From Kineosporia mesophila (GTDB lineage Bacteria > Actinomycetota > Actinomycetes > Actinomycetales > Kineosporiaceae), in NCBI RefSeq assembly GCF_021129235.1, contig NZ_JAJOMA010000014.1:62001-126000 (forward strand): 64,000 nucleotides of DNA. Direction: 5' to 3'. The notes beneath the pieces were generated by a model. That model was not told the origin of the DNA and searched no databases. It was given only the letters and a program-made list of their open reading frames with translations. Made by a program: the position numbers and the translations under genes. Below are positions 747-21,155 of this stretch, one piece after another; the stretch's first letter is position 1, and each line of letters starts with the position of its first letter.

Positions 747-747
747 A

Positions 748-2503: not shown

Positions 2504-2532
2504 CCGGTCCTGACATGACCTGTCCGGACCGG
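2504..2532 (+). terminator. Possible attenuator hairpin between leader ORF and metQ
   Basis: CCGGTCC (2504-2510) and GGACCGG (2526-2532) can pair as a 7-bp all-GC-flanked stem with a 15-base loop, about 105 bases after the leader-ORF stop and 47 bases before metQ. There is no clear U-tract. A role as attenuator or anti-attenuator is inferred from its place behind the leader peptide only. Confidence 0.3.
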
Positions 2533-2578
2533 TCGATGCCCCCTGCTCACATCCCAGACCCCCAAGGATGCCTTCACC

Positions 2579-3556
2579 ATGTCCGAGCCCATCACCCCGG
2601 CCGAGCCGAACGAACCCCAGCTCCCCGCCAAGCCGCGCGACAACCGCCGCACGGCGATCATCGCCGGTGCCGCTGTCGCCGTCGTCGCGATCGCGGGCAT
2701 CGCCTTCGCCGTCACCTCGGGCGGCGACGATGACGACGACACCGCCGCCGGTGTGGCGGGAACGACGAAGACCGTCAGCATCGGTGTCGCGGACGCCTCG
2801 CAGGCCTACTGGAAGACGTACCAGGACCTGGCCAAGAAGGAGCTGAACGTCGACGTCAAGCTGGTCAACTTCAGCGACTACAGCCAGCCGAACCCGGCGC
2901 TGAAGCAGGGCCAGACCGACCTGAACCAGTTCCAGCACATCCAGTACCTGGCCGACTACAACGTCACCAGCAAGGACACGATCCAGCCGATCGGCGCGAC
3001 CGCGGTCTACCCGCTGCCGCTGTACTCCACCAAGTACAAGTCCCCCGAGGAGATCCCGGCCAAGGCCAAGATCGCCATCCCGAACGACACGATCAACGAG
3101 GCCCGGGGCCTGCTCGTGCTCCAGGCGGCCGGCCTGCTCACCCTGAAGGACGGCGGCGGCGCCTTCTCCAGCGTCGACGACATCGACACCAGCAAGATCA
3201 AGGTCGTGCCGCTGGACGCGTCGCAGACCGCCGGCGCGGTGAAGAGCGGTTCCACCGCCGCCTCGATCGTGAACAAGAACTTCGCCACCGACGCCGGCCT
3301 GAAGACCGACGAGGCGATCTACCAGGACGACCCCTCCAGCGACGTGGCCGCGCCGTACGTCAACATCTTCGCCGCCCGCGCGGAGGACAAGGACAACCCC
3401 ACCTACCTGAAGCTGGCCGAGCTCTACCACGACGCGTCGGTCGAGAAGGGCGTGCAGGAGGCCAACGGCGGAACCGCGGTCTTCCGCGACACCTCCCCCG
3501 CCGACCTGCAGGCCGAGCTGGCGAAGGTGGAGGAACAGGCGCGTGCCGCCAAGTGA
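2579..3556 (+). CDS. metQ: MetQ/NlpA-family substrate-binding protein, membrane-anchored
   Basis: A 325-residue solute-binding component of a methionine/organosulfur-type ABC importer. After the N-terminus, an NlpA-family domain covers about residues 60-320 (KTVSIGVADASQAYWKTYQ; LVNFSDYSQPNPALKQGQTDLNQFQH; the APYVNIFAAR stretch near the end). Unlike classical MetQ lipoproteins there is no lipobox cysteine. Instead a hydrophobic helix at about residues 26-48 is followed by an acidic run GGDDDDD, so it should be held by a signal anchor. The stop overlaps the metN start by 14 bp. The ligand may be methionine or another sulfur compound; the divergent FMN monooxygenase favours the latter. The ATG at 2579 has AAGGA 11 bases upstream. 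Confidence 0.88.
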   Translation: MSEPITPAEPNEPQLPAKPRDNRRTAIIAGAAVAVVAIAGIAFAVTSGGDDDDDTAAGVAGTTKTVSIGVADASQAYWKTYQDLAKKELNVDVKLVNFSDYSQPNPALKQGQTDLNQFQHIQYLADYNVTSKDTIQPIGATAVYPLPLYSTKYKSPEEIPAKAKIAIPNDTINEARGLLVLQAAGLLTLKDGGGAFSSVDDIDTSKIKVVPLDASQTAGAVKSGSTAASIVNKNFATDAGLKTDEAIYQDDPSSDVAAPYVNIFAARAEDKDNPTYLKLAELYHDASVEKGVQEANGGTAVFRDTSPADLQAELAKVEEQARAAK

Positions 3557-4598
3557 CATCCACGTCCGCTTCGAGGATGTGACCAAGACCTTTCCCGGTC
3601 GCGGTCGCAAGGATCCCGCGCAGCAGGTGCTGCGCGGGATCGACCTCGAGATCCACCGGGGCGAGATCTTCGGCATCATCGGCCAGTCCGGTGCGGGCAA
3701 GAGCACGCTGGTGCGGCTCATCAATGGCCTGGAACCGGTCACGTCGGGCCGCATCACGGTCGGCGACCGGGTGGTCAGCGGGCTGAGCGAGCGGCAGCTG
3801 CGGGCCGTGCGGCGCGAAATCGGCATGATCTTCCAGCAGTTCAACCTGTTCCGGTCGCGCACGGTGGCCGGCAACGTGGCCTACCCGCTGAAGGTCGCCG
3901 GGGTGAAGCAGCCCGAGCGGGACCGTAAGGTCGCGCGGCTGCTGGACTTCGTCGGCCTGCTGCAGCGCGCCAACGACCACCCCGAGCAGCTCTCGGGCGG
4001 TCAGCAGCAGCGGGTCGGCATCGCCCGGGCCCTGGCCACCGACCCGTCGCTGCTGCTGGCCGACGAGGCCACCAGCGCGCTGGACCCGGAGACCACCCAG
4101 GACGTGCTCAGCCTGCTCAAGCAGGTGAACCGCGAACTGGGCATCACGATCGTCATCATCACCCACGAGATGGACGTGATCCGGCAGATCGCCGACCGGG
4201 TCGCGGTGATCGACTCCGGTCACGTGGTGGAGAGCGGCAGCGCGTACGACATCTTCGCCGCGCCGAAGACACCCGAGGCGACCCGGTTCGTCAGCAGCAC
4301 ACTGCGCGACCGGCCCTCGGCGGCCACTCTGGAACGGCTGCGGGTCTCGCACCCGGGCCGGCTGGTGACGGTGCGGGTGCAGGACCGGCCCGCGTTCCAG
4401 AACTCGCTGTCGGTGGCCTTCCTCCAGCGGGACGTCACGGCCGATCTGGTGTTCGGCGGCATCAGCGAGCTGCAGGACCGGCCGGTGGGCAGCCTGACCT
4501 ACTCGCTGACCGGTGGCGAAGGCTCCGTCGACGAGCTGCTGAAGCAGTTACGCGCCGACGGTTTCGACCTCGACGAGCACGAGGGGGCTTCACGGTGA
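3543..4598 (+). CDS. metN: MetN-type ABC transporter ATP-binding protein
   Basis: This 351-residue ATPase energises uptake with MetI and MetQ. The Walker A is GQSGAGKST (about residues 47-55), the Q-loop is IFQQFNLF, the ABC signature is LSGGQQQR, and the Walker B is LLLADEATSALD, followed by the H-loop in ITHEMD. A C-terminal NIL/ACT-like domain (about 265-351), typical of MetN, binds methionine in E. coli and causes substrate trans-inhibition; its presence supports a MetN rather than a generic polar amino-acid ATPase. The GTG start overlaps the metQ stop and the stop overlaps the metI start by 4 bp, so the three genes are translationally coupled. Confidence 0.93.
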   Translation: MPPSDIHVRFEDVTKTFPGRGRKDPAQQVLRGIDLEIHRGEIFGIIGQSGAGKSTLVRLINGLEPVTSGRITVGDRVVSGLSERQLRAVRREIGMIFQQFNLFRSRTVAGNVAYPLKVAGVKQPERDRKVARLLDFVGLLQRANDHPEQLSGGQQQRVGIARALATDPSLLLADEATSALDPETTQDVLSLLKQVNRELGITIVIITHEMDVIRQIADRVAVIDSGHVVESGSAYDIFAAPKTPEATRFVSSTLRDRPSAATLERLRVSHPGRLVTVRVQDRPAFQNSLSVAFLQRDVTADLVFGGISELQDRPVGSLTYSLTGGEGSVDELLKQLRADGFDLDEHEGASR

Positions 4599-5248
4599 AC
4601 GATTTCGACTGGGAAGTCTTCCGGACCGCCATCGGCCAGACGTTCTTCATCGTCTCGATCTCGGTCGTCGTCGGTGGCCTGATCGGGCTGCTGCTCGGCC
4701 TGGTGCTCTACGCCACCCGGCCGGGCAACCTGCTGTCCAGCCGCCCGGTGTTCATCCTGCTCAACGTGCTGGTGAACATCGTGCGCCCGATCCCGTTCGT
4801 GATCTTCCTGGTGGCCATCCAGCCGCTGATGCTCACCGCGATCGGCACGACGATCGGCACCAACGCGGTGACGTTCGCCCTGTCGCTCTCGGCGGCGTTC
4901 GCGGTGAGCCGCATCGTCGAGCAGAACCTGCTCACGGTGAACCCGGGCGTGATCGAGGCGGCCCGGGCAGCGGGCGCCGGGCCGGTGAGCATCCTGCTGA
5001 CCGTGCTCGTGCCCGAGGCCCTCGGCCCGCTGATCCTGGGCTACACGTTCATCTTCGTGGCGATCGTCGACATGTCCGCCCAGGCAGGCCTGTTCGGGGG
5101 TGGTGGCATCGGTGACTTCGCCATCACCTACGGCTCGCAGCGTTACAACTGGCCGGTCGTGTACATCAGCGTCGCCGCGATGATCATCCTGGTCCAGGCC
5201 GGGCAGTTCCTCGGCAACTACCTGGCCCGAAAGGCCCTGCGCCGCTAG
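4595..5248 (+). CDS. metI: MetI-type ABC transporter permease
   Basis: A 217-residue inner-membrane permease with about five transmembrane helices (for example TFFIVSISVVVGGLIGLLLGL near the start). The EAA loop, EAARAAGAGPVSILLTVLVP, contacts the ATPase. Length and topology match MetI (about 217 residues in E. coli). The GTG start overlaps the metN stop (GTGA). It is the last gene of the leader ORF-metQ-metN-metI unit; no obvious terminator hairpin directly follows. Confidence 0.92.
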   Translation: MNDFDWEVFRTAIGQTFFIVSISVVVGGLIGLLLGLVLYATRPGNLLSSRPVFILLNVLVNIVRPIPFVIFLVAIQPLMLTAIGTTIGTNAVTFALSLSAAFAVSRIVEQNLLTVNPGVIEAARAAGAGPVSILLTVLVPEALGPLILGYTFIFVAIVDMSAQAGLFGGGGIGDFAITYGSQRYNWPVVYISVAAMIILVQAGQFLGNYLARKALRR

Positions 5249-5301
5249 CCAGAACCGGGGACAGCCGACCATCGGCCGGCTGCCCCCGGACCCGGCGTCG
5301 A

Positions 5302-5430
5302 TCAGGGCATCCCCGAATCGGACGGCCAGGTCAACCGGGTCCGGGCCAGATCACTGCCGCGAATCCCCGTCTTCAGGTACACCTCCAGAATGTGCTGCAC
5401 ATCTGCCAGGTCGAGGCGGAAGACACGGGG
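5302..5430 (-). pseudogene. Possible C-terminal remnant, nucleotidyltransferase-like
   Basis: Minus-strand codons here have GC-rich third positions and read DLADVQHILEVYL, then GSDLARTRLTW before a TGA at 5302. The pattern resembles the C-terminus of nucleotidyltransferase-like proteins (KDLADVRAILE...LDLDYLRxW). No start, upstream domain or ribosome site is present, so if real it is a gene fragment. The rest of 5249-5506 shows nothing recognisable. This call rests on a short resemblance. Confidence 0.25.
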
Positions 5431-5506
5431 AGGCAAGGATGACGGCGCCCGGCACCGCCCGGAGGGACGGGCGATGTCGCGTGCACCGTCGCTGCGACGG
5501 ACCTTT

Positions 5507-5830
5507 TCAGGCCCGCGCGACCAGCCGCGGCCCCAGCGAAAGGCGTCCGAGACGGATGACGAAACCGGATGCCAGCAGCAGATATTCGGCAAGTTCCCGG
5601 GCCTGCTCGGCATTGACGTCGAAGAGGTTGCCCACCGTGATGCGCGGTGCCCCCACCTGCCTCACCACCGGATCGGCCAGCAGGTCGTAGTCGACCCGCT
5701 GGGCCACCCGCACCAGGATCGTGTCCCCGGTCGCCCTGACCATCCCGATCTCACGTTCGTGGTCGACGGCCTCTTCGTCCACCACCGAGGACCTCGTCCA
5801 CAGACCGTCCCCGTGAAAGATCTCGCGCAT
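5507..5830 (-). CDS. Small conserved-looking protein of unknown function
   Basis: A 107-residue ORF with an excellent ribosome site (AAAGGAGT, 6 bases before ATG at 5830). I do not recognise the family. It begins MREIFHGDGLW and has a hydrophobic, beta-rich centre (GDTILVRVAQRV), followed by VGAPRITVGNLFDVNAEQAR and a helical Leu-rich tail. There is no signal peptide or transmembrane helix. It is divergent from the XRE/DUF397 pair with a 134-bp shared intergenic region, so that regulator is a candidate for controlling it. In-frame starts further upstream (to 6037) run into the XRE gene and are unlikely. Confidence 0.65.
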   Translation of the reverse strand: MREIFHGDGLWTRSSVVDEEAVDHEREIGMVRATGDTILVRVAQRVDYDLLADPVVRQVGAPRITVGNLFDVNAEQARELAEYLLLASGFVIRLGRLSLGPRLVARA

Positions 5831-5964: not shown

Positions 5965-6786
5965 ATGTCCGTCGTGGTGAGGAAGTCCCTGGGCCGACAA
6001 CTCGCCGCGCTGCGCCATGCAGCGGGGGTGAGGCCATCGCAAGTTGCTGCTAGCAAAATCGCGAGCACGAGCAAACTGCATCGCCTGGAACACGGCGAAG
6101 TGTCCGTACGCCTGGAAACGGTGTGGGCCCTGTGCGATCTGTACAAGGCATCCCCGGAAGTCAAGAGCCGCCTTTCCGCGATGTCCCTGAATACCGATAA
6201 GAACGGTTGGTGGGAGGGGTTTTCCGATCTCATCGTCAATCCCCACTTCGGCACCTACGTCGAACTTGAATCCATCGCCGACGGCCTCTGCGCCTGGGAG
6301 GAACAGTTCGTCCACGGGCTGTTCCAGGTCCCCGAGTACACAGCCGCGATCTTTGACGCCCATTCGCAGGCAACCGGTCTTCAGCAGGACCGGAATCGGC
6401 AAGTCGCCTTCCGCCGGGAACGACAGAAGAACGTGTTCAATCGTGCGAACGCGATGCGGATGTCAATCGTTCTCGGTGCCGGTGCACTCCTGCAGCAAGT
6501 AGGCGGAGCGCGGGCTCTCGACGCCCAGCGAAAGCACCTGCTCACCGTCGCCGAGCGGCCCGGCGTCGACATCCTGGTCCTGCCGTGGACAGCACCGGCA
6601 CATGCCCTCATGGGCAGTTCACTGAGCCTCCTGCACTTCGATGCCGAGGACATCCCCGATGTGGCCTACGTCGAGGCCCTGTTCGGCGGGCGGTACGAGG
6701 AAGCAGCGGCCACGGTCAGCCTCCAGCGGAAGAAGTACGATCACTTGCTATCCCTGGCCGTTCCGATCGAGGAGTACCTGAGATGA
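5965..6786 (+). CDS. XRE-family regulator with DUF5753 domain
   Basis: A 273-residue protein with an N-terminal helix-turn-helix (LGRQLAALRHAAGVRPSQVA, then SKLHRLEHGEVSVR; about residues 8-65). A DUF5753 domain occupies the rest (WEEQFVHGLFQVPEYTAAIF, FRRERQKNVF, LPWTAPAHALMGSSLSLL). Such proteins are abundant in Streptomyces and relatives and usually pair with a DUF397 protein; some pairs (BldB/WhiJ-like) affect development. Here the ATG of the DUF397 gene overlaps the stop. The AT content of the first 300 bases is higher than in neighbouring genes. Confidence 0.92.
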   Translation: MSVVVRKSLGRQLAALRHAAGVRPSQVAASKIASTSKLHRLEHGEVSVRLETVWALCDLYKASPEVKSRLSAMSLNTDKNGWWEGFSDLIVNPHFGTYVELESIADGLCAWEEQFVHGLFQVPEYTAAIFDAHSQATGLQQDRNRQVAFRRERQKNVFNRANAMRMSIVLGAGALLQQVGGARALDAQRKHLLTVAERPGVDILVLPWTAPAHALMGSSLSLLHFDAEDIPDVAYVEALFGGRYEEAAATVSLQRKKYDHLLSLAVPIEEYLR

Positions 6787-6986
6787 CTACCGAGTCCCCT
6801 TGGATCAAGGCTTCCGCATCAGGAACAGAAAATTGTGTGCAGATGCGCCGCCACCGGGGCGCCCCCGAAGTCCGCGATTCCAAGAACCCCGACAACGACG
6901 TCCTCAAGCTCTCGGTGAACGCGACCACCGCGTGGCTCGACGGTGCCCGCCGGGGCGAGTTCGATCATCTCGCCGGGCACCCGTGA
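6783..6986 (+). CDS. DUF397 domain protein
   Basis: A 67-residue protein starting at the ATG that overlaps the XRE stop (ATGA). The features are those of DUF397: WIKASASG at the N-terminus (usual W.KSS.S...NCVEVA), an NCVQMR segment, VRDSKNP (the invariant RDSK.P), then WLDGARRGEFD in place of the common W..F...v..G.FD. DUF397 proteins are partners, probably antagonists, of the adjacent DUF5753/XRE regulators. A longer in-frame ORF starting earlier would lie inside the XRE gene and is rejected. Confidence 0.9.
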   Translation: MTTESPWIKASASGTENCVQMRRHRGAPEVRDSKNPDNDVLKLSVNATTAWLDGARRGEFDHLAGHP

Positions 6987-7163
6987 ACAGCTCGCGATTC
7001 GGAACTGAGTAGCGAGATCGCTACGCTGTGCGACCTTACCGAGCGCGAGCATCGCGGGGATCGGCCTGGGCCACCGCACAGACGAATCGATCAACGCCCG
7101 ATTAGCGAGCTAAACCGCCCATTAACCGGATTCTGATACCGTCCGGTACGGAATGCGCTTCGG

Positions 7164-8036
7164 TTGCGTTCGGGGCCTGGGCTCATCGGATCCTGGGCAC
7201 CCGGCGCCACGGCTGATGGGTGGCTCGGCTTGACCAATCCGCAGTGGGTGGGCGATGACATCGACCTCACCCGTCCCAGCGTCTCCCGGATGTACGACTA
7301 TTACCTCGGGGGCTTCCACAACTTCGGGCCCGACCGGGAGATGGCCGAGAAGGCGATCGCCGGCTGGCCGGAGCTTCCCCAGATCATGCGCGCGAACCGG
7401 GCGTTCCTGCGCCGCGGGGTCACGTACCTGATCGACCAGGGTGTGCGGCAGTTCCTCGACATCGGCTCGGGCATCCCGACGGTGGGAAACGTTCACGAGG
7501 TGGCGCAGGAGCTGGCGTCGGACGCCAGGATCGTCTACGTCGACACCGACCCGGTCGCCGTGGCGCACAGCAAGCAGTTGCTCGAGGGCAACACCGGCGC
7601 GGCGGCGCTGGCCGGTGACTTCACCCGGCCCGCCGACCTGCTCCAGGAAGTGCAGGAGCTCGGGCTGCTGGACCCGCAGCAGCCGACCGCGGTGCTGCTG
7701 AACGCCCTGCTGCACTTCGTGCCGGACGAGGCCGGACCCACGGAACTGATTGCGCACTACCGCGACTGGAGCGCGCCGGGCAGCTACCTGATGATCAGCC
7801 ACGCCACGCACGAGCTGCACCCCACCGAGCAGACGGAGGGCTTCAAGCAGCTCTACCGCAACGCGACCAGCCAGATGCGTTTCCGTGGACGGGACGAGGT
7901 CGCGACCTTCTTCGAGGGCTACGACCTGGTCGAGCCCGGCATCGAGCTGCTGACCCGCTGGCGCCCGGACGAAGACGCCTCGACCCAGGACGCGGAGCGC
8001 TTCCCGGGCTGGGCCGGAGTCGGCCGGAAGCTATGA
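7164..8036 (+). CDS. DUF574-family SAM-dependent methyltransferase
   Basis: Up to 290 residues, belonging to the actinobacterial S-adenosylmethionine methyltransferase family DUF574 (Methyltransf_19). The diagnostic N-terminal motif is DLTRPSVSRMYDYYLGG followed by NF..DR. The SAM-binding loop is FLDIGSGIPTVGNVHE, with YVDTDPVAV as the acidic loop and PTAVLLNALLHFVPD at motif IV. The substrate of the family is not known. The start is uncertain: TTG at 7164 is the first, but TTG at 7230 would give an N-terminus closer to the family norm. The intergenic 6987-7163 contains no visible gene. Confidence 0.88.
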   Translation: MRSGPGLIGSWAPGATADGWLGLTNPQWVGDDIDLTRPSVSRMYDYYLGGFHNFGPDREMAEKAIAGWPELPQIMRANRAFLRRGVTYLIDQGVRQFLDIGSGIPTVGNVHEVAQELASDARIVYVDTDPVAVAHSKQLLEGNTGAAALAGDFTRPADLLQEVQELGLLDPQQPTAVLLNALLHFVPDEAGPTELIAHYRDWSAPGSYLMISHATHELHPTEQTEGFKQLYRNATSQMRFRGRDEVATFFEGYDLVEPGIELLTRWRPDEDASTQDAERFPGWAGVGRKL

Positions 8037-8058
8037 GCAGCAGTTCCCCCTCTGCCCG

Positions 8059-8086
8059 ATGAACGAGACCGGATGAACGAGGCCGG
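8059..8086 (+). repeat. 14-bp tandem duplication before the GGDEF-EAL start
   Basis: ATGAACGAGACCGG (8059-8072) is followed directly by ATGAACGAGGCCGG (8073-8086) and then by the ATG of the GGDEF-EAL gene. Each unit contains its own ATG and a purine-rich stretch. The duplication places three ATG codons 14 bases apart, in three different frames. Confidence 0.7.
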
Positions 8087-10243
8087 ATGAGCCAGAAGCG
8101 TCTGAGCGCGGACTGGGAACAGGCCCTGCGCGAGTCCGGTGACCCGCTGGCGGGGCAGGACTTCGCCCATCTCGCGGAGCGCCTGGCCATGGTGACCCTG
8201 GCCGGGCTGACCCCGACGGCCGATGCGGAGAAGTCCGGCCGCCGGCTGGGCCGGATGCTGGCCGACGCGCACTTCACCGCGCCCCGGGCGATCGGGCAGG
8301 CCGTCATGGTGCTGGCCCGGTACGCCCCGGACGTCGGTGACCTGCACCGCGAGCGCCAGCTCCTGCTCATGCAGGGCGGGTTGGCGGCCGGTCACGCCTC
8401 GGCGGTTCAGCAGCGTCTGCTGACCCAGCAGGAGGCCATCCACCAGGCCGCGTCGGCGGCCCGTGACGAGGTGGCCCAGGCGCTGTCCGAGTCGGAGGCG
8501 CGCTGGCGGCGGCTGGTCGACCAGGCTCCGGTGGGCATCGCGATCGGAGACATCGAGGGCAACATCCTCGAGGCGAACGCGTCGTTGCAGCGGATGCTCG
8601 GGTTCTCCCTCGACGACATGCGCGGCATGCGGATCGAGCAGTTCACACATCCGGAGGACGGTGAGGACGTCTGGGAGACCTACGCCGACCTGGTCGCCGG
8701 CCGCAGTGACGAGTACCGGATGGAGAAGCAGTACGTCCGCAAGGACGGCGAGGTCGCCTGGACCAACCTGAGCGTGAGCCTGATCCGCGACCCCGACGGT
8801 GAGCCGGCGTTCCAGGTGGCGGTGGTCGAGGACATCACCGAGCGGCACACGCTGCAGGAACAGCTCAGCCACGAGGCCACGCACGATCCGCTGACGGGCC
8901 TGCCGAACCGGGTGCTCTTCCTGCGCCGTCTGGATCGCGCGGTCGCCGACCCCGGTCCGGACGACCGGGTGGCGGTGCTGTTCATCGACCTGGACGGGTT
9001 CAAGTTCGTCAACGACTCGCGGGGTCACATCGTCGGCGACCGGGTGCTCATCGCGGTGGCCGAACGTCTGGCCGAGGCCGCCCGGGCCTCGGGAGCGCTG
9101 GTGGCGCGCCTGGCGGGTGACGAGTTCGTGGCGCTGCTGTCCAGCCGTCTGGACGAGCAGCGGCCGATGACCGTGGCCGAGGAGCTGCTGGCCGCGCTGA
9201 AGCAGCCGCTGAATGTCACCGGGCAGCTCCCGGTGCAGGTCGGCGCCAGCATCGGCGTGGTGGAACTGGCTGCGGCGGGCGCCAACTCGGCCGAGATCAT
9301 GCAGGCTGCCGACCTGGCCCTGCACGCGGCGAAGGAGGCCGGCAAGGGCCGCGTGGTGGAGCACGATCCGCAGCGCCGCGCCGGTCAGCTGACGAAGTTC
9401 CAGGTGGCGATGCAGCTGCCGGGTCTGGTGGAGCGGGGTGAGCTGGCGCTGGTCTACCAGCCCCTGGTGCGCCTGGACACCGGGGCCGTGCACAGCGTGG
9501 AGGCACTGCTGCGCTGGAACCACCCGCACATGGGGCCGCTGTCGCCGGACATGTTCATCCGGATCGCCGAGGAGAACGCCGCGATCCTGCCGATCGGGCG
9601 CTGGGTGCTCGACCGGGCCTGCGCCGACATGGCGGTCAGCGCCTGGCCCGCCGTGAACATCAATGTCAGTGTGCGGCAGCTGTACTCGCCTCGCTTCCTG
9701 AACGACATCAAGTGCGCGCTGGACCTGGCCCAGATCGAGCCGTCGATGCTGCGGGTGGAGATCACCGAGAGCGTGGTGATGAACCTCGACGACCCCGAGC
9801 CGGTGGCGGTACTGGACACCCTGGTGAACATGGGTGTTCGCCTGGTGATGGACGACTTCGGCACCGGTTACAGCAATCTCGCGGCCCTGCGGCGCCTGCC
9901 CTGGCACGAGCTGAAACTGGCCGGCGCGTTCCTGGAGAGTTCCCGCGCCGGCCAGGCCTGGTCACCGACCGACCAGCGCATCCTGCAGACGCTGGTCGAG
10001 CTCGCCCACAGCATCGACCTGCTGGTCACGGCCGAGGGTGTGGAGACCGCCGAGCAGGACCGGCAGGTGCGCGAGATCGGCTGTGACGTGGGGCAGGGCT
10101 GGTTCTACGCCAGACCTGCCCCCGTGAGCCATCAACCGGCCGCACGCCGGATTCTCACCCCCAAACCCACGCCCCCGCAGGCCCGGCGCAACGGGGGCGC
10201 CCCGAACACCGCACCCATGCCGACGATTCAGGTGCGTCGCTGA
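8087..10243 (+). CDS. PAS-GGDEF-EAL cyclic-di-GMP signalling protein
   Basis: A 718-residue soluble protein. An N-terminal helical region (1-140) of unknown type precedes a PAS domain (about 142-255; DQAPVGIAIGD, then a PAC-like VVEDITERH), a GGDEF domain (about 270-430; HDPLTGLPNR, then LAGDEFVALL) and an EAL domain (about 450-690). The GGDEF signature reads AGDEF, a mild change that can still be active. The EAL side keeps SVEALLRW, VNINVSVRQL, ITES, DDFGTGYSNL, the LK lysine and EGVE, so phosphodiesterase activity is likely. The usual LKID aspartate is replaced by Ala. No transmembrane helices are visible, so PAS probably senses a cytoplasmic ligand. It is convergent with the galactanase gene. 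Confidence 0.93.
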   Translation: MSQKRLSADWEQALRESGDPLAGQDFAHLAERLAMVTLAGLTPTADAEKSGRRLGRMLADAHFTAPRAIGQAVMVLARYAPDVGDLHRERQLLLMQGGLAAGHASAVQQRLLTQQEAIHQAASAARDEVAQALSESEARWRRLVDQAPVGIAIGDIEGNILEANASLQRMLGFSLDDMRGMRIEQFTHPEDGEDVWETYADLVAGRSDEYRMEKQYVRKDGEVAWTNLSVSLIRDPDGEPAFQVAVVEDITERHTLQEQLSHEATHDPLTGLPNRVLFLRRLDRAVADPGPDDRVAVLFIDLDGFKFVNDSRGHIVGDRVLIAVAERLAEAARASGALVARLAGDEFVALLSSRLDEQRPMTVAEELLAALKQPLNVTGQLPVQVGASIGVVELAAAGANSAEIMQAADLALHAAKEAGKGRVVEHDPQRRAGQLTKFQVAMQLPGLVERGELALVYQPLVRLDTGAVHSVEALLRWNHPHMGPLSPDMFIRIAEENAAILPIGRWVLDRACADMAVSAWPAVNINVSVRQLYSPRFLNDIKCALDLAQIEPSMLRVEITESVVMNLDDPEPVAVLDTLVNMGVRLVMDDFGTGYSNLAALRRLPWHELKLAGAFLESSRAGQAWSPTDQRILQTLVELAHSIDLLVTAEGVETAEQDRQVREIGCDVGQGWFYARPAPVSHQPAARRILTPKPTPPQARRNGGAPNTAPMPTIQVRR

Positions 10244-10284: not shown

Positions 10285-11397
10285 TCACGGCGTCCACTTG
10301 ATCGTCGGGTTGACGTGGCCGGTCCAGTCGAACGTGGCCATGTTGTCCCAGCCGTTCCCGCTCGTGGCGATGTTCGCCGGGTCCCAGCCGTTTCCGGTGT
10401 TCGGCCCGTACCAGGTCGGCTCCCAGTAGAAGACGCCGATCGCCCCGGCGTTACGAGCGGTGTTCTGCACGTAGGAGAACTCGGTGGCCTGCCCGGCCCA
10501 GGAGGTCGTGATCCCCTCGCAGGTGGCCGAGGTCACCGAGTTCGACGTGCTGTCGGCATTGGAAGCCGTGAACGGGAAAGCGGTCTCGGCAATCACCACC
10601 GGCTTGGAGTACCGCGTGCGCATGTCGGTGATCACGTTGTAGAGGTTTGCCAGCGTGCCGTGCCACATGCAGTAGTACGACAGCCCGGTGATGTCCCAAT
10701 TGACGCCCTTGGCCTTGATCCCGTCGTAGAACCAGCGGGCGTTGGTCAGGCTGTCGGAGTTCGCGGTGTGGATGATCACCTGGGTCGAGCTGTTGCAGGC
10801 CTTGGTCGCGTTGTACCCGGCCTTCAGCAGCAGACTCAGGTTGGTGAAGTCATTGTTCACGACTTTGCCGTCGTTCCAGAGCATTCCGAGGTTGATCTCG
10901 TTGCCGATCTGCACGCTGTCCGGGGTCGTGCCCTGGGCCTTGAGCGTGGTGCAGAGGTTATAGGTGTAGTCGTAGACGTCGGTCTGCAACTGGGTGATGT
11001 TGTGACTGGCCCAGGCGGCGGGCTTACCCTGCTTGCCCGGGTCGGCCCAGGTGTCGGAGTAGTGGAAGTCGACCAGTAGCTTCAGCCCCTTGGCCTTCAC
11101 CGTCTTCGCGTAGGCCGCGACCTTGGCGGCGTTGTTGTACCCGCTGGCCGGGTTGTTCCAGACCCGTAGCCGGGCGTAGTTCACGCCGTCGGCCTTGAGG
11201 ATGTCCAGCGCGTCCTGCTGCGTGCCGGCGGCGTTGTAGAACTTCAGCCCCAGCTCGTCACTGCGTTGCAGGGTGGACACGTCCGCCCCGAGCATGGTCA
11301 GGCTGTTGGCCGCACTGGCGGTCGGCGGTGCGGTGATGCCGACGGTAATCAGGGCGGCGAGCGCGGCCGCCGTTCCCGCCAGGTTCCTGAGCTTCAT
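10285..11397 (-). CDS. Secreted GH53 arabinogalactan endo-1,4-beta-galactanase
   Basis: A 370-residue GH53 enzyme that cleaves beta-1,4-galactan side chains of pectin. A Sec signal peptide (MKLRNLAGTAAALAALITVG...ASA) is followed by the (beta/alpha)8 barrel: GADVSTLQR, YARLRVWNNPASGY, LLVDFHYSDTWADPGKQ, VQIGNEIN (acid/base Glu) and PVVIAETAFP (nucleophile Glu). The start is ATG 11397, which has GGAG 6 bases upstream; the GTG at 11409 has none. An 18-bp LacI-type operator lies 33 bp upstream. Together with the + strand homologue beyond lacI it forms a galactan-utilisation locus. Confidence 0.93.
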   Translation of the reverse strand: MKLRNLAGTAAALAALITVGITAPPTASAANSLTMLGADVSTLQRSDELGLKFYNAAGTQQDALDILKADGVNYARLRVWNNPASGYNNAAKVAAYAKTVKAKGLKLLVDFHYSDTWADPGKQGKPAAWASHNITQLQTDVYDYTYNLCTTLKAQGTTPDSVQIGNEINLGMLWNDGKVVNNDFTNLSLLLKAGYNATKACNSSTQVIIHTANSDSLTNARWFYDGIKAKGVNWDITGLSYYCMWHGTLANLYNVITDMRTRYSKPVVIAETAFPFTASNADSTSNSVTSATCEGITTSWAGQATEFSYVQNTARNAGAIGVFYWEPTWYGPNTGNGWDPANIATSGNGWDNMATFDWTGHVNPTIKWTP

Positions 11398-11429
11398 CTG
11401 GTGCTCCACTCGTCTTTGAGGTGGACCGG

Positions 11430-12664: not shown

Positions 12665-12702
12665 GCCAGACCGGCACCGTGACGTTCACCCGGAGGTCGT
12701 CG

Positions 12703-13878
12703 ATGCCCTCGCCCAGCACTCCCGCCAACAGCCGCGAATCAGGCCTGTCCCGAAGAGCCGCCCTGGCCGCCGTGGGCGGGATAGCCCTCACCGGCTTCGC
12801 CGCTTCCCCCGCTCAAGCAGCAAAGCGCGCCGACACGGCCCTCAGCATCCGCGGCGCCGACCTGTCCTTCCTGCCGCAGCTGGAGGAGGCCGGGGTCCAC
12901 TACCGCGACCTGGCCGGCCGCGTCCGCCCGGCCGAGCGGATCATCGCCGCCGCGGGGGCCAACCACCAGCGCATCCGGGTGTGGGTCGACCCGCCGGCCG
13001 GGTACACCGACCGGAAGCGGGCTCTGGCGCTGGCCCGGCGGGCTCACCGGGCCGGGCTGAAGATCGTGCTCGACCCGCACTACTGCGACTTCTGGGCCGA
13101 CCCGAGCAAGCAGCCGATCCCGGCCGGCTGGCCCACCGACCTGGCCGGCCTGACCGAGAAGGTCCGCATTTACACCCGGGACCTGGTCAGGGATTTCGCC
13201 GCCCAGGGCACGCCGGTCGACATCTTCCAGATGGGCAACGAGATCACCGCCGGGATCCTCTGGCCGGTCGGGCAGCTCTACCCGGCCGACGGGTCCCAGC
13301 ACTGGGACGAGTTCGCCACCCTGCTCAAGGCCGGTATCACCGGGGCCCTCCAGGGAGCGGGCCGGCGTCCGCCGAAGGTGATGCTGCACATCGACCGGGG
13401 CGGCAAACTGGCCGACACCCGCTGGTTCTTCGACAACATCACCACCCTGCAGGTGCCGTTCGACATCATCGGCCAGTCGTACTACCCGATGTGGCACGGC
13501 TCGCTGGCGGATCTGCGCGCCAACCTCGAGGACTCGGTGGCCCGGTACGGAAAACCGGTACTGCTGGCCGAGGTCAGCTACCCGTGGACGTTCGAGGACG
13601 GCGACGGCCGGGGCAACATCGTCACCCCCGACGCCGTGCTGCCCGACCTGGACCGGTTCCCGGCCACCCCGGCCGGGCAGGCCGGTTTCTACCAGGCCCT
13701 GCGCGAGGTGCTGGTCGGGGTGCCGGGTGGCAACGGGCTGGGATTCCTGGTCTGGGAACCGGAATGGATTCCCGGCGTGGGCTGGGAGCCCGGCGCCGAG
13801 GCGTCCAACGACAACCTCACCCAGTTCGACTTCACCGGCCGGGCCCTGCCCTCGATCCGCGCGTACCGCAAGCCCTGA
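12703..13878 (+). CDS. Second GH53 endo-beta-1,4-galactanase, Tat-exported
   Basis: A 391-residue GH53 enzyme, divergent from the LacI repressor. The signal sequence has the twin-arginine motif LSRRAALAAVGG and ends near SPAQA, so it is exported folded, unlike the Sec-type homologue at 10285-11397. Barrel motifs are IRGADLSFLPQ, HQRIRVWVDPPAGY, IVLDPHYCDFWADPSKQ, FQMGNEIT (acid/base Glu) and PVLLAEVSYPW (nucleophile Glu). ATG 12703 has GGAGG 6 bases upstream, better than the GTG at 12679. The stop abuts that of the following minus-strand gene. Confidence 0.93.
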   Translation: MPSPSTPANSRESGLSRRAALAAVGGIALTGFAASPAQAAKRADTALSIRGADLSFLPQLEEAGVHYRDLAGRVRPAERIIAAAGANHQRIRVWVDPPAGYTDRKRALALARRAHRAGLKIVLDPHYCDFWADPSKQPIPAGWPTDLAGLTEKVRIYTRDLVRDFAAQGTPVDIFQMGNEITAGILWPVGQLYPADGSQHWDEFATLLKAGITGALQGAGRRPPKVMLHIDRGGKLADTRWFFDNITTLQVPFDIIGQSYYPMWHGSLADLRANLEDSVARYGKPVLLAEVSYPWTFEDGDGRGNIVTPDAVLPDLDRFPATPAGQAGFYQALREVLVGVPGGNGLGFLVWEPEWIPGVGWEPGAEASNDNLTQFDFTGRALPSIRAYRKP

Positions 13879-15907: not shown

Positions 15908-18900
15908 ATGGAACACATCGAGTCAGCACGGGACCGGCTCGCGGCGCTCCGTGCCGCCCCGGACGCAACGGTCTGGTCGATCCTGACCGGGGAGGAGAGG
16001 GCCCAGGCCGAACTCACACGCCTCAGTGAGCTCCCCGGCGCACCGCTGCGGGGCTGGCTGGTCTCGGTCAAGGACAACGTCGACGTGGCCGGGATGCTGA
16101 CCAGCGCCACCACGGGACGTCCGCTGTACACCCCCGACGCGGACGCCCCGGTCGTGGCGGCCCTGCGCGCGGCGGGGGCGCTCGTCGCGGGCAAGACCAC
16201 GATGGGTCAGCTGTCGATCGGCAGCCGCGACGTGTCGGGTGACCTGTCCTCGGTGGCCGACCCGGCCCTGATCGCCGGGGGCTCCGGCGGTGCGGTGGCG
16301 GTGGCGCGGGGGCTGACGGACATCTCCATCGGCACGGACGCGGGCGGGTCGGGCCGCGTGCCGGCCGCGTTCAACGGCATTATCGGGCTGCGGCCGACCC
16401 CGGGCCTGATCCCGGCCGCGGGCGCGGTGCTCTCGGCCCCCGGCTACGAGTCGATGAGCATCTACGCCCGTGACCTCGACACCGCCGAGCAGGCGCTCGG
16501 CGTGCTCGTGCGTCACCACCCCGACGTGCCCGGCAGCCGCCCCTGGCCCGCCGACGCACCGCTCGCCGCACCCGCTCACGTCCGCATCGGCGTACCCACG
16601 CCGAGTGGGCTGGACCCGCTGACCCCGGCCTGGCGCAGTGCCTTCGAGGGGGCTCAGCGGCGGGTGGACCAGGACTGGCTCACGATCGTGCCGGTCGACA
16701 TCTCCGAGCTGGTCGGCGCCCGGCTGCCCTACGACGTGGCCCTGCTGCGCGACCTGCAGATCCAGCGGACGCTGGCCGCCCGGGTGAGCGCGCTGTGGGA
16801 CCACATCGACGTGCTCATCACGCCGACCGCACCCGGGCACCCCACGCACCAGCAGGCGATCACCGACCCGGCCGGCGTGAACTCGTGGCTCGGCACCTAC
16901 ACGAACTTCGTCAACCTGCTCGACCTGGCCTCGATCGCCATGCCGATGAACACCGACGTCAGCGAGCCGGTCGGCGTCACCCTGATCGGTCCCGCGTTCA
17001 GCGACCGGGTGCTGCTGGACATCGCCGCCCGGGTGCGTCCCGACCTCGCACCGTTGCAGGCCTGGCTGCCCGGGCACCACGAGATCGCCGTCGTCGGGGA
17101 CCTGGCCCGGGGCGGTGCCGCGCAGGACGAGCTGCCACGCCACGGTGCGCGGTTCGTCCGGGAGGTGCGCACCTCACCGGAGTACGTGGTGCACCGCAGC
17201 GGTCTGGTGCGGCGCCCGGGTGCCTCCAGCGTCACCGCCGAGATCTGGGCCCTGCCGTCGGCCGCCGTCTCCCCGCTCCTGGCCGGAATCCCCCTTCCCC
17301 TCAGCCTCGGCACGATCCGTCTCGAAGACGGCAGCATCGTCAGTGGTTTCGTCTGCGAACCCGGCGTCACCTTCCCCGTGACGCGCAACCCGACCGGCAC
17401 GACGACACCTGAGAACGCCGAAGAGAGGCCGCACATGCCCCGTACCCCCGGTGACCGCATCGCCGAGATCGACGGGCTGTTCGCCGCCCGGGCGCTCGAG
17501 CACGTCCGTCCACTGATCAGCGAGGAGCTGCTCGAGGAACACCGCAAGTCCCCCCTCACGATCACCGGTCCCGGGCTGCGGCACCTCCTGGACCAGATCG
17601 ACCAGGCCCCCGCGACCGACTCCCTGGCCGTGCTCGCGCTCAAGCCCGGCGAGAGCTACCAGATCATCCGCCGGGCCGCGCGCCGCGGGTTCCCCAACGA
17701 CCTCAGCGACGTGCGCCGCTACCCCACCGAGGAGGCCGCGCTCCACGAGATCCTCCTGCGCCGTCTGGCCGCCCTCGGCCTGCGGCCCCGGGTGGCCGGC
17801 GACGACACCGGGGTGATGGCCAGCGAGCCCGACATCACGCTGCCCCGGGTCATCGGCTATACCGACCGGCTCGGCGTGAAGCAGGGCACGGGGGTGGACG
17901 TGCACCTCTCGTCCACCCACCCGGTCACCGTCTCCGCCGACCTGGTCTCCCTCGGCAACCCCGAGGTGGTCGCCTCGTTCGGCGAGATCCAGGTGACCCC
18001 GCAGCGCACGGTGCTCGGCTCGTGCGCCGTCACCGGCCTGCTGCCGGTCGAGATCTCCGTGCTCAGCGCCGTCTTCATGCCCACCGGGATCGGTAACGGG
18101 CGCCAGGTGGTGCTCTCGCAGGACGGCCCGGACGGCTGGTGGTTCGGACTCGACCACGAGGGATACCCGCAGCTGACCACCGCGGGCACCACCTCGTCCG
18201 CCAAGAAACCTCTCGTGAACGGGGTCTGGTACATGGTCGCGGTCCAGGCGGGCGAGCAGGGCTCGTTCACCGTCGCCACCGTGCCCGCGCCGCGTTCGGG
18301 CTGGACCTCCGGCGTGAACCTGATCCCGGCGACGGTCACCGCCGAGGCGGCGCTGACCATGACCGACCAGCCGGTGCGCTTCGCGGCCCGGGCCGAGGGA
18401 GAGTTCTGGACGGACTCCTTCGACGGCAAGATCGAGACGCCGGTGGCCCTGGCCGGGGTGCTGGGCGCCGACGTGGTCAAGAACACCCGGCGCCGCATGC
18501 CCGCCCGCGAGGCGGAGACCGCGGTGGTGATCTGGGACGTGGCGGCCAACCTCGGGGACGAGGGCATCAAGGACCACGAGATCCCGGCCCTGGTGCGCTC
18601 GGAGAGCGGTAGCTGGGAAGAGGTGCCCTCGCTGTTCGCCCAGACGCTGAACGCGCCCACGTGGGGCGTCACCTCGTCGTCGTGGAACGGCATGCAGGAC
18701 TCGTTCACCCACCGCCCGGACCAGTGGGCCGCCGTCCACTTCCACCGCTCCGACCTCGACGACTGCCGCTGGCCGGTCTCCTTCACGGTCGACGTCTCCG
18801 ACGAGGTGCGCAGCGGCGCCTACGTCGTGCGGCTGTGCGCGGCCGGTTTCGAGACCGAGCTGCTGCCGCTGTTCGTCGAGCCGGAGTGGCCGGAGGCCCG

Positions 18901-19837
18901 GCTCGCGGTGATCGTGCCGACGCTGTCGTACCTGGCCGCCGAGGACGAGCCGGCCCCACCCGTCGTCACCGACGCCGACCTCTACCTGCACGACCACCCG
19001 CAGTTCGGGCACCACACCGGGGAGACCCACGCGTCGCTGCGGCGCCCGCTGCTGCACCTGCGCTCCACCGGGACCGGCCGCCTGGCCGCCGACATGCAGC
19101 TGCTGGCCTGGTTGGACTCCGAGGGCATCGCGTACGAGGTGGTCACCGACCACGCGCTGCACGAGCAGGGCACCGAGGCGCTGCGCCCGTACGCGGCCGT
19201 GGCCACGACCAGCCGCCCGTCGCTCTACACCACGACGATGCTGGACGCGGTCGAGGAGTACGTCAACGGCGGTGGACGTTTCGCGTACCTGGGAGCCGAC
19301 GGCTTCTCCACCCGCGTCTCGGTGGACTACCGGCGGCCGTGGATGATGGAGCTGCGCCGGGCCGACGCCCGGCCCGGCGAGCTGACCCACGCCTACTCCG
19401 GTGAACGGGGCGGTGCCTGGGCCACTCTCGGCCGCGCCACGCACAAGTTCTTCAACATCGGCGCCAGCCCGCAGCGACCCGACCTGGCCGGCTGGTTCCG
19501 CCGCCTGGCCGACGCCGACGACCCGCGGGCCGCGTTCGTGCTCGACGGGGTGAGCGAAGAGATCTTCGGTCAGCTGCGGGCGCACTGCGTGGACCGGTAC
19601 GACGCGGCGCTCGGATCCTCGCCCGACGTGCTGGTGCTCGCGACCGGTGAGGGCCTGTCCCGGACCGGTGAGCCGGGTGTGCGGGCCGACATGACCTACC
19701 GGGTCACGCCCTCCGACGGCGCGGTGTTCACCACCGGGGCGAGCTCCTGGTGCGGATCGCTGGGCAAGGACCCGGTGATCTCCCGGATCACCGGCAACGT
19801 GATCCGGCGGTTCGTGGACGAGGAACCCCTGGACTGA
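15908..19837 (+). CDS. Fusion: AtzF-like amidase + N,N-dimethylformamidase alpha/beta-like regions
   Basis: A 1309-residue protein with three regions. Residues 1-400 are an amidase-signature domain with the triad Lys55 (SVKDN), Ser126 (GGSGG) and Ser148 (DAGGSGR). Residues 400-490 match the allophanate hydrolase C-terminal domain (VTAEIWALPS...IPLPLSLGTI...GFVCEP). Residues 510-640 resemble the small subunit of N,N-dimethylformamidase (RRYPTEEAALHEILLRRL), and 640-1309 the large subunit C-terminal domain (WNGMQDSFT; RPSLYTTTMLDAVEEYVNGGGR; GRATHKFFNIG). It should hydrolyse amides or ureas in two steps, but the substrate is unknown. Met510 (17435) has a good ribosome site (GAGAGG, 6 bases), and an off-frame TGA lies at 17410, so the joint looks like two former coupled genes joined by loss of a stop or a 1-base change. 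Confidence 0.85.
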   Translation: MEHIESARDRLAALRAAPDATVWSILTGEERAQAELTRLSELPGAPLRGWLVSVKDNVDVAGMLTSATTGRPLYTPDADAPVVAALRAAGALVAGKTTMGQLSIGSRDVSGDLSSVADPALIAGGSGGAVAVARGLTDISIGTDAGGSGRVPAAFNGIIGLRPTPGLIPAAGAVLSAPGYESMSIYARDLDTAEQALGVLVRHHPDVPGSRPWPADAPLAAPAHVRIGVPTPSGLDPLTPAWRSAFEGAQRRVDQDWLTIVPVDISELVGARLPYDVALLRDLQIQRTLAARVSALWDHIDVLITPTAPGHPTHQQAITDPAGVNSWLGTYTNFVNLLDLASIAMPMNTDVSEPVGVTLIGPAFSDRVLLDIAARVRPDLAPLQAWLPGHHEIAVVGDLARGGAAQDELPRHGARFVREVRTSPEYVVHRSGLVRRPGASSVTAEIWALPSAAVSPLLAGIPLPLSLGTIRLEDGSIVSGFVCEPGVTFPVTRNPTGTTTPENAEERPHMPRTPGDRIAEIDGLFAARALEHVRPLISEELLEEHRKSPLTITGPGLRHLLDQIDQAPATDSLAVLALKPGESYQIIRRAARRGFPNDLSDVRRYPTEEAALHEILLRRLAALGLRPRVAGDDTGVMASEPDITLPRVIGYTDRLGVKQGTGVDVHLSSTHPVTVSADLVSLGNPEVVASFGEIQVTPQRTVLGSCAVTGLLPVEISVLSAVFMPTGIGNGRQVVLSQDGPDGWWFGLDHEGYPQLTTAGTTSSAKKPLVNGVWYMVAVQAGEQGSFTVATVPAPRSGWTSGVNLIPATVTAEAALTMTDQPVRFAARAEGEFWTDSFDGKIETPVALAGVLGADVVKNTRRRMPAREAETAVVIWDVAANLGDEGIKDHEIPALVRSESGSWEEVPSLFAQTLNAPTWGVTSSSWNGMQDSFTHRPDQWAAVHFHRSDLDDCRWPVSFTVDVSDEVRSGAYVVRLCAAGFETELLPLFVEPEWPEARLAVIVPTLSYLAAEDEPAPPVVTDADLYLHDHPQFGHHTGETHASLRRPLLHLRSTGTGRLAADMQLLAWLDSEGIAYEVVTDHALHEQGTEALRPYAAVATTSRPSLYTTTMLDAVEEYVNGGGRFAYLGADGFSTRVSVDYRRPWMMELRRADARPGELTHAYSGERGGAWATLGRATHKFFNIGASPQRPDLAGWFRRLADADDPRAAFVLDGVSEEIFGQLRAHCVDRYDAALGSSPDVLVLATGEGLSRTGEPGVRADMTYRVTPSDGAVFTTGASSWCGSLGKDPVISRITGNVIRRFVDEEPLD

Positions 19838-19866: not shown

Positions 19867-20478
19867 ATGACGCCCGACGCTCCGAGTAAGCCGTTCCGGC
19901 TCGTCCCCTCGCCCGGCTCGGACTGGAATCTCGAGCCGGGCGGAGGGTCGATCAGCACCACGGCGCACCCCCGGTCGGACGTCTTCGTCGACCCCGCGGG
20001 CGTGGCCGCGCCGAAGCACGACGCGGTCACGCTGCTGGCGCCCGCCCCCGAGGGCGACTTCCAGCTCTCCGCCCGCGTCACCGTGGACTTCGCCGCCGAC
20101 TTCGACGCCGGCGTCCTCGTTCTCTGGTTCGACGAGACGCACTGGGGAAAGCTTTGTTTCGAGTACTCTCCGGCCGGTGAGCCGATGGTGGTCTCGGTGG
20201 TGTGCCGCGGCGTCGCCGACGACTCGAACGCCTTCGCGGTGGCCGGCGACGCGGTCTGGCTGCGGGCCTCCCGGATCGACGGGGCGTTCGCCTACCACGC
20301 CTCGCTGGACGGGAAAACCTGGCCTATGGTGCGTTATTTCGCCATCCCCGAGGGTTCTCCGGCCGATCTGCGCATCGGGTTCCTGGCCCAGTCGCCGGTG
20401 GGTGAGGGCTGCCGGGTGACGTTCGACGAGGTGGCCTTCACAGACGTCCGTCTGGAGAATCTGCGCGACGGCTCCTGA
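19867..20478 (+). CDS. DUF1349 (concanavalin-like) protein
   Basis: A 203-residue DUF1349 protein with the usual beta-sandwich pattern: DVFVDPAG (the TDfw..p.g segment), DFQLSARVTVDFAADFDAGVLVLWFDETHWGKLC with D-G-L-x-V-x-D-E..W-K, and a DGKTWPMVRYFAIP tail. The family is related to the yeast protein Regulation of Enolase 1 and is probably carbohydrate- or metabolite-binding; its function is not established. The gap to the fusion gene is 29 bp on the same strand, so it is likely co-transcribed. Its 3' end overlaps the decayed ABC ATPase on the other strand by about 40 bp. Confidence 0.85.
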   Translation: MTPDAPSKPFRLVPSPGSDWNLEPGGGSISTTAHPRSDVFVDPAGVAAPKHDAVTLLAPAPEGDFQLSARVTVDFAADFDAGVLVLWFDETHWGKLCFEYSPAGEPMVVSVVCRGVADDSNAFAVAGDAVWLRASRIDGAFAYHASLDGKTWPMVRYFAIPEGSPADLRIGFLAQSPVGEGCRVTFDEVAFTDVRLENLRDGS

Positions 20479-20730
20479 CGCTTTCCTTCGCCTGCTGGAT
20501 CAGCCGGTACACCTGCCGCCCGCAGCCGTGCGAACCGGGCGTCCGAGCGGGTGGTGAGCTGGTCGCGCTCGTCAGGCAGGTCCACGGTGACGTCCTCGAG
20601 AAGTACCGTGGGCCGGTCCGACAGCACCAGCACCCGCTCCCCCAGGCAGACAGCGCCGAGCAGCGCCTCATCGCCCGTGGGCTCCAGCAGGCCGCGGATG
20701 CACCGCAGTAGCGTGGTCTTCCCGGCGCCC
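20438..20730 (-). pseudogene. Decayed SsuB/TauB-type ABC ATPase
   Basis: Minus-strand reading gives a Walker A, GAGKTTLLRCIRGLLEPTG (20665-20720 region). It is then joined almost directly to the C-terminal ERVLVLSDRPTVLLEDVTVD and LPDERDQL segments of nitrate/sulfonate-type ATPases. The Q-loop, signature and Walker B (over 100 residues) are missing. A further frameshift separates FARLRA from the tail YRLIQQAKESVRSRRA, which ends at a stop at 20438. The upstream end is fused to a permease fragment. It is not functional. Confidence 0.75.
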
Positions 20731-20943
20731 GAGGTAGCCGACGCTGAGGCGGGCCACGCTGGGCAGCAAGTCGGCGGTGATGCGCTCGCCGAACCAGGTG
20801 CCGGGGAACGCCTTCACCCCGGTCGACAGTGATGGCCAGAAGAAACTCGTACCGTTCGCCGTCGGTGCCCATCACAACCCGACCAGCAGCAGGGGCACCG
20901 TGAGCGCGGACGCGGTGCTTCGTCCAAAATTTCGGATACTCAC
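20731..20943 (-). pseudogene. N-terminal remnant of ABC permease (nonsense codon, truncated)
   Basis: From a GTG at 20943 the frame reads VSIRNFGRSTASALTVPLLL, then VGL, TGA, WAPTANGTSFFWPSL, then GTWFGERITADLLPSVARL and SVGYL. This is the N-terminus of an SsuC-type permease. The TGA near 20877 stands where the family has Trp (TGG to TGA). The sequence breaks after SVGYL and continues as the ABC ATPase Walker A in another frame, so a deletion joined the two genes. The GTG overlaps the stop of the preceding permease remnant by 4 bp (GTGA), a relic of coupled translation. Confidence 0.75.
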
Positions 20944-21155
20944 CCGGCCGCCTCCCGCCGGATCGACGAATGCCATTGCATCAGGCGGCGTTTCGCTCCA
21001 CGGGCAAGGAGATTGACGAGCACCCCGACCACCCCGACCACCCCGACCACGCCGACCACGCCGACCACGCCGACCACGCCGACCAGGGCGTAGGTGCGCG
21101 GGACGGCACCGGATGACTGGGCCACCCCGAGCGCCTGCCTGAGGCTCAGAAGGGC
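20940..21155 (-). pseudogene. C-terminal remnant of a second ABC permease with repeat expansion
   Basis: The frame reads LRQALGVAQSSGAVPRTYAL, a long GVV repeat, then LVNLLARGAKRRLMQWHSSI and RREAAG, ending in TGA at 20940. The end matches the last helix and tail of SsuC-type permeases (RT..v.a...v.GllvN.l.r..e.r.l.W). Only the last ~70 codons remain, and the upstream part is replaced by the DUF222-HNH gene end. The Gly-Val-Val run comes from a 9-bp tandem repeat and would lengthen the final helix. Confidence 0.7.
21023..21088. repeat. 9-bp tandem repeat (CGACCACSC unit, about 7 copies)
   Basis: Units CGACCACCC (2-3) and CGACCACGC (4) run head to tail, ending in CGACCAGGG. On the minus strand they encode Gly-Val-Val in the permease remnant. 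The order of the two variants (CCC first, then CGC) suggests slippage from two founder units. Confidence 0.85.

Follow-up and report, generated by a model that had tools for sequence, protein, structure and literature searches.

The window analysed here is a stretch of 64,000 nucleotides from Kineosporia mesophila (contig NZ_JAJOMA010000014.1, positions 62,001 to 126,000, forward strand). Its positions 15908-19837 (+) carry a single uninterrupted open reading frame with an ATG start, 1309 codons and a third-position GC of 0.94, which encodes in one chain of 1309 amino acids (aa) an allophanate hydrolase (AH)-type amidase, an AH_C domain, a DmfA1-like alpha part and a DmfA2-like beta part, in this order. 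We refer to this gene and its product as the fusion. Full-length counterparts (aa 1-1309) were found in two other species of the genus, with 94% (genome G008) and 79% (genome G009) identity. The features of the fusion are listed below; former active-site residues of the beta part carry the numbers of the Paracoccus N,N-dimethylformamidase.

15908..17077 (+), AH-type amidase-signature domain (aa 1-390), from the Pfam Amidase match and the tree; the NCBIfam allophanate hydrolase model is the best match, under its cut-off.
16070..16072 (+), Lys55, the Lys position of the amidase triad, invariant in 13 of 13 rows of the amidase alignment.
16283..16285 (+), Ser126, the candidate cis-Ser, where GGSSSGS is cut by 2 residues to GGSGGA, from the phmmer alignment to 4gyr; at least 90% conserved in the amidase alignment.
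16349..16351 (+), Ser148, the nucleophile position, invariant in 13 of 13 rows of the amidase alignment.
16730..16738 (+), Tyr275 and the place where about 42 columns, among them the AER-motif Arg, are deleted, from the alignment with 14 AH-like homologs.
17078..17368 (+), AH_C domain (aa 391-487), from Pfam AH_C.
17369..17443 (+), linker (aa 488-512), the fastest-evolving part of the fusion (dN about 0.5, window against G009), with an internal Met510 at 17435.
17444..17791 (+), DmfA1-like alpha part (aa 513-628), from blastp to alpha genes and to a Leucobacter single-chain alpha-beta protein.
17828..18877 (+), N-terminal part of the DmfA2-like beta (aa 641-990), Ig/pentraxin-type by homology to the Paracoccus enzyme, from the alignment to DmfA2 homologs.
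18878..19834 (+), former catalytic domain III of the DmfA2-like beta (aa 991-1309), from Pfam DMFA2_C.
18938..18940 (+), Ala1011 instead of the iron ligand Tyr399, which is Tyr in 94 of 94 non-fusion rows of the alignment.
19010..19030 (+), rebuilt loop HHTGETH (aa 1035-1041), with Gly1038 instead of the iron ligand Tyr440, which is Tyr in 93 of 94 non-fusion rows.
19214..19222 (+), Arg1103 and Ser1105 instead of the essential His519 and the iron ligand Glu521, from the alignment (Glu retained in G009).
19298..19300 (+), Asp1131 instead of Asn547, from the alignment (Gln in G009).
19586..19588 (+), Cys1227 instead of Glu657, from the alignment (Ser in G009).

Pfam recognised Amidase at aa 4-268 (the best of two stretches; 6e-56, 190.8 bits), AH_C at aa 392-486, C-terminal to the amidase domain (6e-20, 71.9 bits), and DMFA2_C at aa 921-1286 (6e-49, 167.9 bits), each against a cut-off of 27 bits. 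In a phmmer search of the PDB, the amidase half matched allophanate hydrolase 4gyr over two stretches, aa 17-232 and aa 288-486 (3e-65), and aa 729-1307 matched residues 106-758 of the large subunit of the Paracoccus N,N-dimethylformamidase (6lve, 5e-63; 6lvb, 6e-63); by alignment, homology to DmfA2 betas covers aa 641-1309. The alpha part (about aa 511-625) matched in blastp alpha genes that sit directly before beta genes in other bacteria (locus L024, E 1.6e-14; Rhodococcus plasmid, L078, 4e-8), P. aminophilus dmfA1 (E 0.002) and the single-chain protein of Leucobacter chromiisoli (L092; 52% identity, E 4e-27). With respect to N,N-dimethylformamidase, a counterpart of the small alpha subunit (aa 513-628) and the large-subunit architecture with DMFA2_C are both present. 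The domain assignments of an earlier reading of this DNA, made from the letters alone (the sequence-only reading), were borne out by these searches.

Among the best 80 of 495 related contig loci, a set in which records close to the window's genome may be missing, the alpha part was seen in 58. It lay in the beta frame only in L092, and in 16 loci it shared a stop-to-stop frame with a LivM-like permease, so the alpha part seems prone to fusion. Examples of alpha behind a LivM-like branched-chain amino acid permease are L079 (6651-8309), annotated merely as a permease, and L080 (8749-10302), an arrangement that would link enzyme and importer.

The internal Met510, together with the lack of an amidase match in the beta frame in all of these 80 loci and of an alpha match in 79 of them, would fit two genes joined by a missed frameshift or stop. 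However, the frame across the junction is identical in the separate assemblies of three species, one of which (G009) is a single-contig genome, and an assembly or sequencing artefact has next to no probability. The Shine-Dalgarno complementarity at Met510 (-6.8 kcal/mol in the window and G008, -2.6 in G009) is unexceptional compared with random in-gene sites (median -4.0, 5% limit -9.4). The single-chain in-frame fusion that the sequence-only reading had proposed is real, and the same fusion, which that reading had suggested looking for in relatives, exists at full length in both G008 and G009.

The fusion was found in three genomes, those of the window (G000), G008 and G009, both among 13 genomes of the family (E 1e-30) and among 396 genomes of the order (E 1e-45), and only in G000 among 394 genomes of the class (E 1e-60). 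Another contig scan gave 20 matching stretches, none of them a relative. Four very long beta frames (L101, L139, L162 and L138) were rejected as fusions; they contain no family beyond DMFA2_C and Laminin_G_3, and the remainder was taken as the chance length of high-GC frames. The genus-mates G005 and G007 lack the fusion, though the flanking TOPRIM and DUF1349 genes are present. Between these two genes (850 bases in each genome) the best tblastn match to the fusion had E 0.018 over 35 residues and was taken as chance; since there is no clear remnant, gain and clean loss are not distinguishable. The fusion is also absent from G006; the three stretches examined there showed neither TOPRIM nor DUF1349.

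According to the excerpts of PMC7686228, the iron ligands of the Paracoccus dimethylformamidase are Tyr399, Tyr440 and Glu521, which form a 2-Tyr-1-carboxylate centre reported as unique in 2020; the Y440A and E521A variants lose iron and activity, H519A is inactive, and Asn547 is named in a figure legend. The DmfA2 of P. aminophilus (plasmid pAMI2) has the same active-site residues at the Paracoccus numbers. We scored six positions, Tyr399, Tyr440, His519, Glu521, Asn547 and Glu657, the last of which we presumed to be an active-site position and found well conserved among the betas of this analysis. The results showed that these positions read A, G, R, S, D and C in both the window and G008, and A, G, R, E, Q and S in G009. 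Five of the six sites are thereby lost in all three fusions, and Glu521 is lost in the window and G008 and retained in G009. All six are intact in 14/14 non-fusion betas of the first alignment and in 93/94 after the best 80 of the 495 related loci were added. His519, replaced by Arg in 3/3 fusions, is His in 94/94 other betas, and both His519 and Glu521 were kept in 28/28 of the more distant DMFA2_C loci that aligned across them (28 of 30). A misalignment of the active site was rejected, since TLSYLA, FG, TSRP and YLG, the motifs beside these positions, line up clearly. Compared with the dimethylformamidases, the fusion thus lacks the Tyr399/Tyr440/Glu521 ligand set and His519.

The sole exception among the 94 non-fusion betas is L151 (Rhodopseudomonas sp. 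B29), which has two adjacent beta genes (535-3090 and 3488-5806), the second with Tyr440 changed to Cys and Glu657 to Ala. The window's genome holds two more DMFA2_C proteins, G000:C60:26867-28069, which keeps the His/Glu motif, and G000:C59:281902-282831.

In the beta tree the fusions form one clade (support 100), sister to Leucobacter L092, with a stem of 0.94 compared to 0.50 for L092. In the same tree G501, a genome from the same class, groups with named Streptomyces, which marks the host as an actinomycete. When active-site windows were compared with domain III, the windows were the more conserved in pairs of active enzymes, with 0.76 vs 0.60 (L092-L093), 0.67 vs 0.46 (L092-L077) and 0.81 vs 0.51 (L092-L078), and the less conserved in pairs of L092 with its sister fusions, with 0.39 vs 0.54 (window) and 0.41 vs 0.55 (G009); the values between the window and G009 (0.80 vs 0.82) were ordinary. 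These comparisons suggest that the dimethylformamidase part is probably a pseudoenzyme that no longer cuts amides, and that its iron site would have been lost on the branch leading to the fusions, with the rest of the part apparently staying under purifying selection.

The sequence-only reading had proposed two-step processing of an N-substituted amide or urea, which would mean successive hydrolysis by an active dimethylformamidase part and an active AH part. Both families are indeed amide hydrolases, here in one chain, and the genes of an importer adjoin the fusion in G009. Nevertheless, the proposal found no support and is very unlikely: both Tyr ligands and the essential His are gone from every fusion and the Glu from two of them, the corresponding single substitutions at Tyr440, Glu521 and His519 inactivate the Paracoccus enzyme in the excerpts cited above, and the AH pocket is altered as well.

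It is also improbable, though conceivable from the alignment, that the dimethylformamidase part has changed its chemistry, with the Tyr2-Glu iron site swapped for a His-rich metal site in the loop HHxGExH (aa 1035-1041). His1035 and His1036 are fixed in 3/3 fusions, and among the 94 other betas the first is His in 4 and the second Ser in 89. Glu1039, also fixed in 3/3 fusions, replaces an Asp found in 84/94 other betas; His1041 is likewise fixed but is common in the family (78/94). The conservation of this loop proves little, as it comes from three sequences with about 80% identity or more. If this were so, nature would have exchanged a tyrosine-phenolate iron site for a His/carboxylate metal site that works alongside an amidase in the same chain.

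The amidase tree nests the amidase half within the AH-like set, on the AH side of a branch with 100/100 support; its stem, at 1.36, is far longer than the other branches of that set. Its scores were below the cut-offs of both the allophanate hydrolase equivalog TIGR02713 (325.8 vs 511.05) and PRK08186 (372.6 vs 487), and another AH of the window's genome (C1, L089 8485-10356) scored 659.7 and 719.9 with these models, respectively. Of 115 columns invariant in 14 AH-like homologs, among which L089 alone was itself scored against TIGR02713, the three fusions all kept 69 and did not all keep 46. Among these 46 are two Ser belonging to GGSSSGS, three FATGL-loop residues and the AER-motif Arg. This Arg, which presumably has the substrate role of its counterpart in the K. 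lactis AH, is present in 14/14 AH-like homologs and gone from 3/3 fusions, within the deleted segment. Because this Arg, two residues of the cis-Ser motif and a score above the cut-off are all missing, "AtzF-like", the term of the sequence-only reading, would describe the ancestry of the amidase half rather than a shown activity.

The triad of the amidase signature family is Ser-cisSer-Lys, as stated in an excerpt of PMC3944691. All three fusions contain Lys55, Ser148 and Ser126, the last of which the phmmer alignment places opposite the cis-Ser; two residues are lost at the Ser126 motif. The spacing between the two Ser is 22 in the 3 fusions, whereas the 26 other distinct motif strings have 24 (25 strings) or 23 (1 string); these were counted from 51 amidase frames, found with a profile that contained the fusions, which left 37 rows after removal of repeated motif strings, 8 of them unreadable, and the script chose the Ser pair nearest 24. 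Between the window and G009, residues around the triad were identical in 20/21, 31/33 and 45/51 cases (half-widths of 3, 5 and 8, respectively) compared to 293/390 over the whole domain, values that random placements reach in 4.7%, 2.3% and 6.8% of cases. A continuing need for the signature core is weakly supported by these figures.

The same half bears on whether both parts of the chain are dead, which would make the fusion a double pseudoenzyme that regulates another amidase or serves as a scaffold or sensor. The lost iron site, the 46 unkept columns with their two Ser and one Arg, the long stem of the amidase half, and the bona fide AH encoded elsewhere in the genome, well above its cut-off, all argue for this. 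The three catalytic positions that remain in every fusion and the slightly higher conservation of the signature core than of the remainder argue against it, and we regard it as a possible but distinctly less probable explanation than an altered amidase.

The full-length fusion gave dN/dS values (ratio of nonsynonymous to synonymous substitution rates, Nei-Gojobori script) of 0.155 between the window and G008, 0.323 between the window and G009, and 0.302 between G008 and G009; the value for domain III between the window and G008 was 0.10. Seven comparisons of neighbouring genes gave 0.08-0.38. As the values of the fusion lie within the range of its neighbours, the fusion is under purifying selection and has been kept as a gene, although the importer next to it decayed. 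The features downstream of the fusion are:

19867..20478 (+), DUF1349 gene (Pfam PF07081), the next gene downstream of the fusion in the window, G008 and G009 (tblastn).
20463..21143 (-), fragments of an NMT1/THI5-type importer (ATPase and two permeases), from tblastn of the G009 importer.

In G009 this importer, with an NMT1/THI5-type binding protein, two permeases and an ATPase, faces the fusion and the downstream DUF1349 gene, and all four frames are open. In the window only pieces of the two permeases and the ATPase are left, adjoining the intact DUF1349 gene. The G008 copy has an ATPase that can be aligned over 270 residues, incomplete permeases and a binding protein split between frames. 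The dead importer described by the sequence-only reading therefore holds for the window, in part for G008, and not for G009. The importer of G005 appears intact (77-80% identity); in G007 (L183 773-3997) the binding protein and ATPase adjoin, both permeases are gone, and the remnant is followed by an 8-oxoguanine-deaminase-like amidohydrolase, under its cut-off. Since the importer is present in the fusion-less G005 and G007, it would be older than the fusion or independent of it. Farther upstream, the window contains two glycosyl hydrolase family 53 (GH53) genes on opposite strands (10285-11409 and 12679-13878), which flank a LacI-type regulator.

The decay of the importer raises the question of whether the fusion is itself on its way out, with constraint relaxed after the importer died and the frame still unbroken. 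The fragments in the window, the broken substrate-binding gene in G008, the loss of Glu521 in just these two species, and the absence of the fusion from G005 and G007 are all consistent with such a course. We consider it unlikely, as the low dN/dS between the very two species with a damaged importer, lower still in domain III, the lack of any stop in 1309 codons and the agreement with neighbouring genes point the other way. The suggestion of the sequence-only reading that the pathway may be changing thus fits the decayed importer and does not extend to the fusion gene, which remains under purifying selection.

Taken together, these results favour a lineage-specific single-chain protein built from two amide-hydrolase systems, in which a changed (or dead) amidase is joined to a fixed pseudo-dimethylformamidase module; we give this reading as a whole a probability of roughly 0.55. 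An AH-type amidase with its AH_C domain appears to have been joined to a complete alpha-beta dimethylformamidase-like module. The amidase part retains the catalytic positions Lys and Ser, but its cis-Ser loop is shortened and its substrate pocket altered; if still active, it would act on a substrate other than allophanate. The alpha-beta module, a fold that forms dimers and tetramers in the Paracoccus enzyme (excerpts of PMC7686228), may hold the chain in an oligomer or bind a ligand, as a scaffold or sensor, without cleaving amides.

Several points weigh against this reading. Both the remaining amidase activity and the role as scaffold or sensor are predicted from sequence comparison. The two-residue deletion at the cis-Ser motif alone may be enough to kill the amidase, and the enrichment of identity around the triad is weak and comes from 3 sequences. 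The long outgroup branches of the amidase tree may mislead, strong codon bias was left uncorrected in the dN/dS values, and an internal start at Met510 could yield the alpha-beta part as a separate product. The occurrence of the fusion in three species gives conservation little power.

The fusion represents a natural member of the dimethylformamidase family in which the iron site has been erased while alpha and beta persist, linked to another hydrolase. A ready control is the single chain of Leucobacter, whose site is intact, and the two together make it possible to ask which roles the dimethylformamidase fold has apart from catalysis and whether fusion can rewire AH-type amidases. In the collection of CC0, CC BY and CC BY-SA papers that was searched, none of the 13 papers with "dimethylformamidase" also contains "allophanate hydrolase".

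Compared with known systems, the fusion shares with the N,N-dimethylformamidases (DmfA1/DmfA2; Paracoccus, PDB 6lvb; dmfA1-dmfA2 of P. aminophilus pAMI2) the alpha-beta order and the homologous N-terminal part and domain III, but it is one chain rather than two, stands behind an amidase, and has lost the iron site and the essential His. N-acetyl-(R)-beta-phenylalanine acylase (PDB 8huy, 8i5a) has a homologous beta domain and by alignment retains the HPEY and Tyr motifs, which the fusion does not. Allophanate hydrolase (AtzF; TIGR02713) has the same order of amidase and AH_C and lies on the same side of the tree, and urea amidolyase (PDB 5i8i) is a known case of its fusion to urea carboxylase, so AHs do occur in fusions; the fusion differs from it in its partner, its score under the cut-off, and its loss of residues at the cis-Ser loop and of the segment with the Arg. 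The closest relative found is that of Leucobacter chromiisoli (L092 9593-12247; 46% identity in beta and 52% in alpha), where alpha and beta likewise form one chain, of 884 aa, and where, unlike in the fusion, the active site is intact. In this locus, tandem amidase-signature genes (6178-8136 and 8133-9569) stand before the alpha-beta chain and after ATP-binding cassette (ABC) importer genes. The nearer amidase gene ends 23 bp upstream of the chain and is separate from it; with 31% identity to the fusion amidase, plain amidases as its best NCBIfam matches and its place in the tree, it is of non-AH type and was rejected as the unfused parent or orthologue. The amidase beside the Leucobacter alpha-beta chain is a parallel to the fusion, not its parent.

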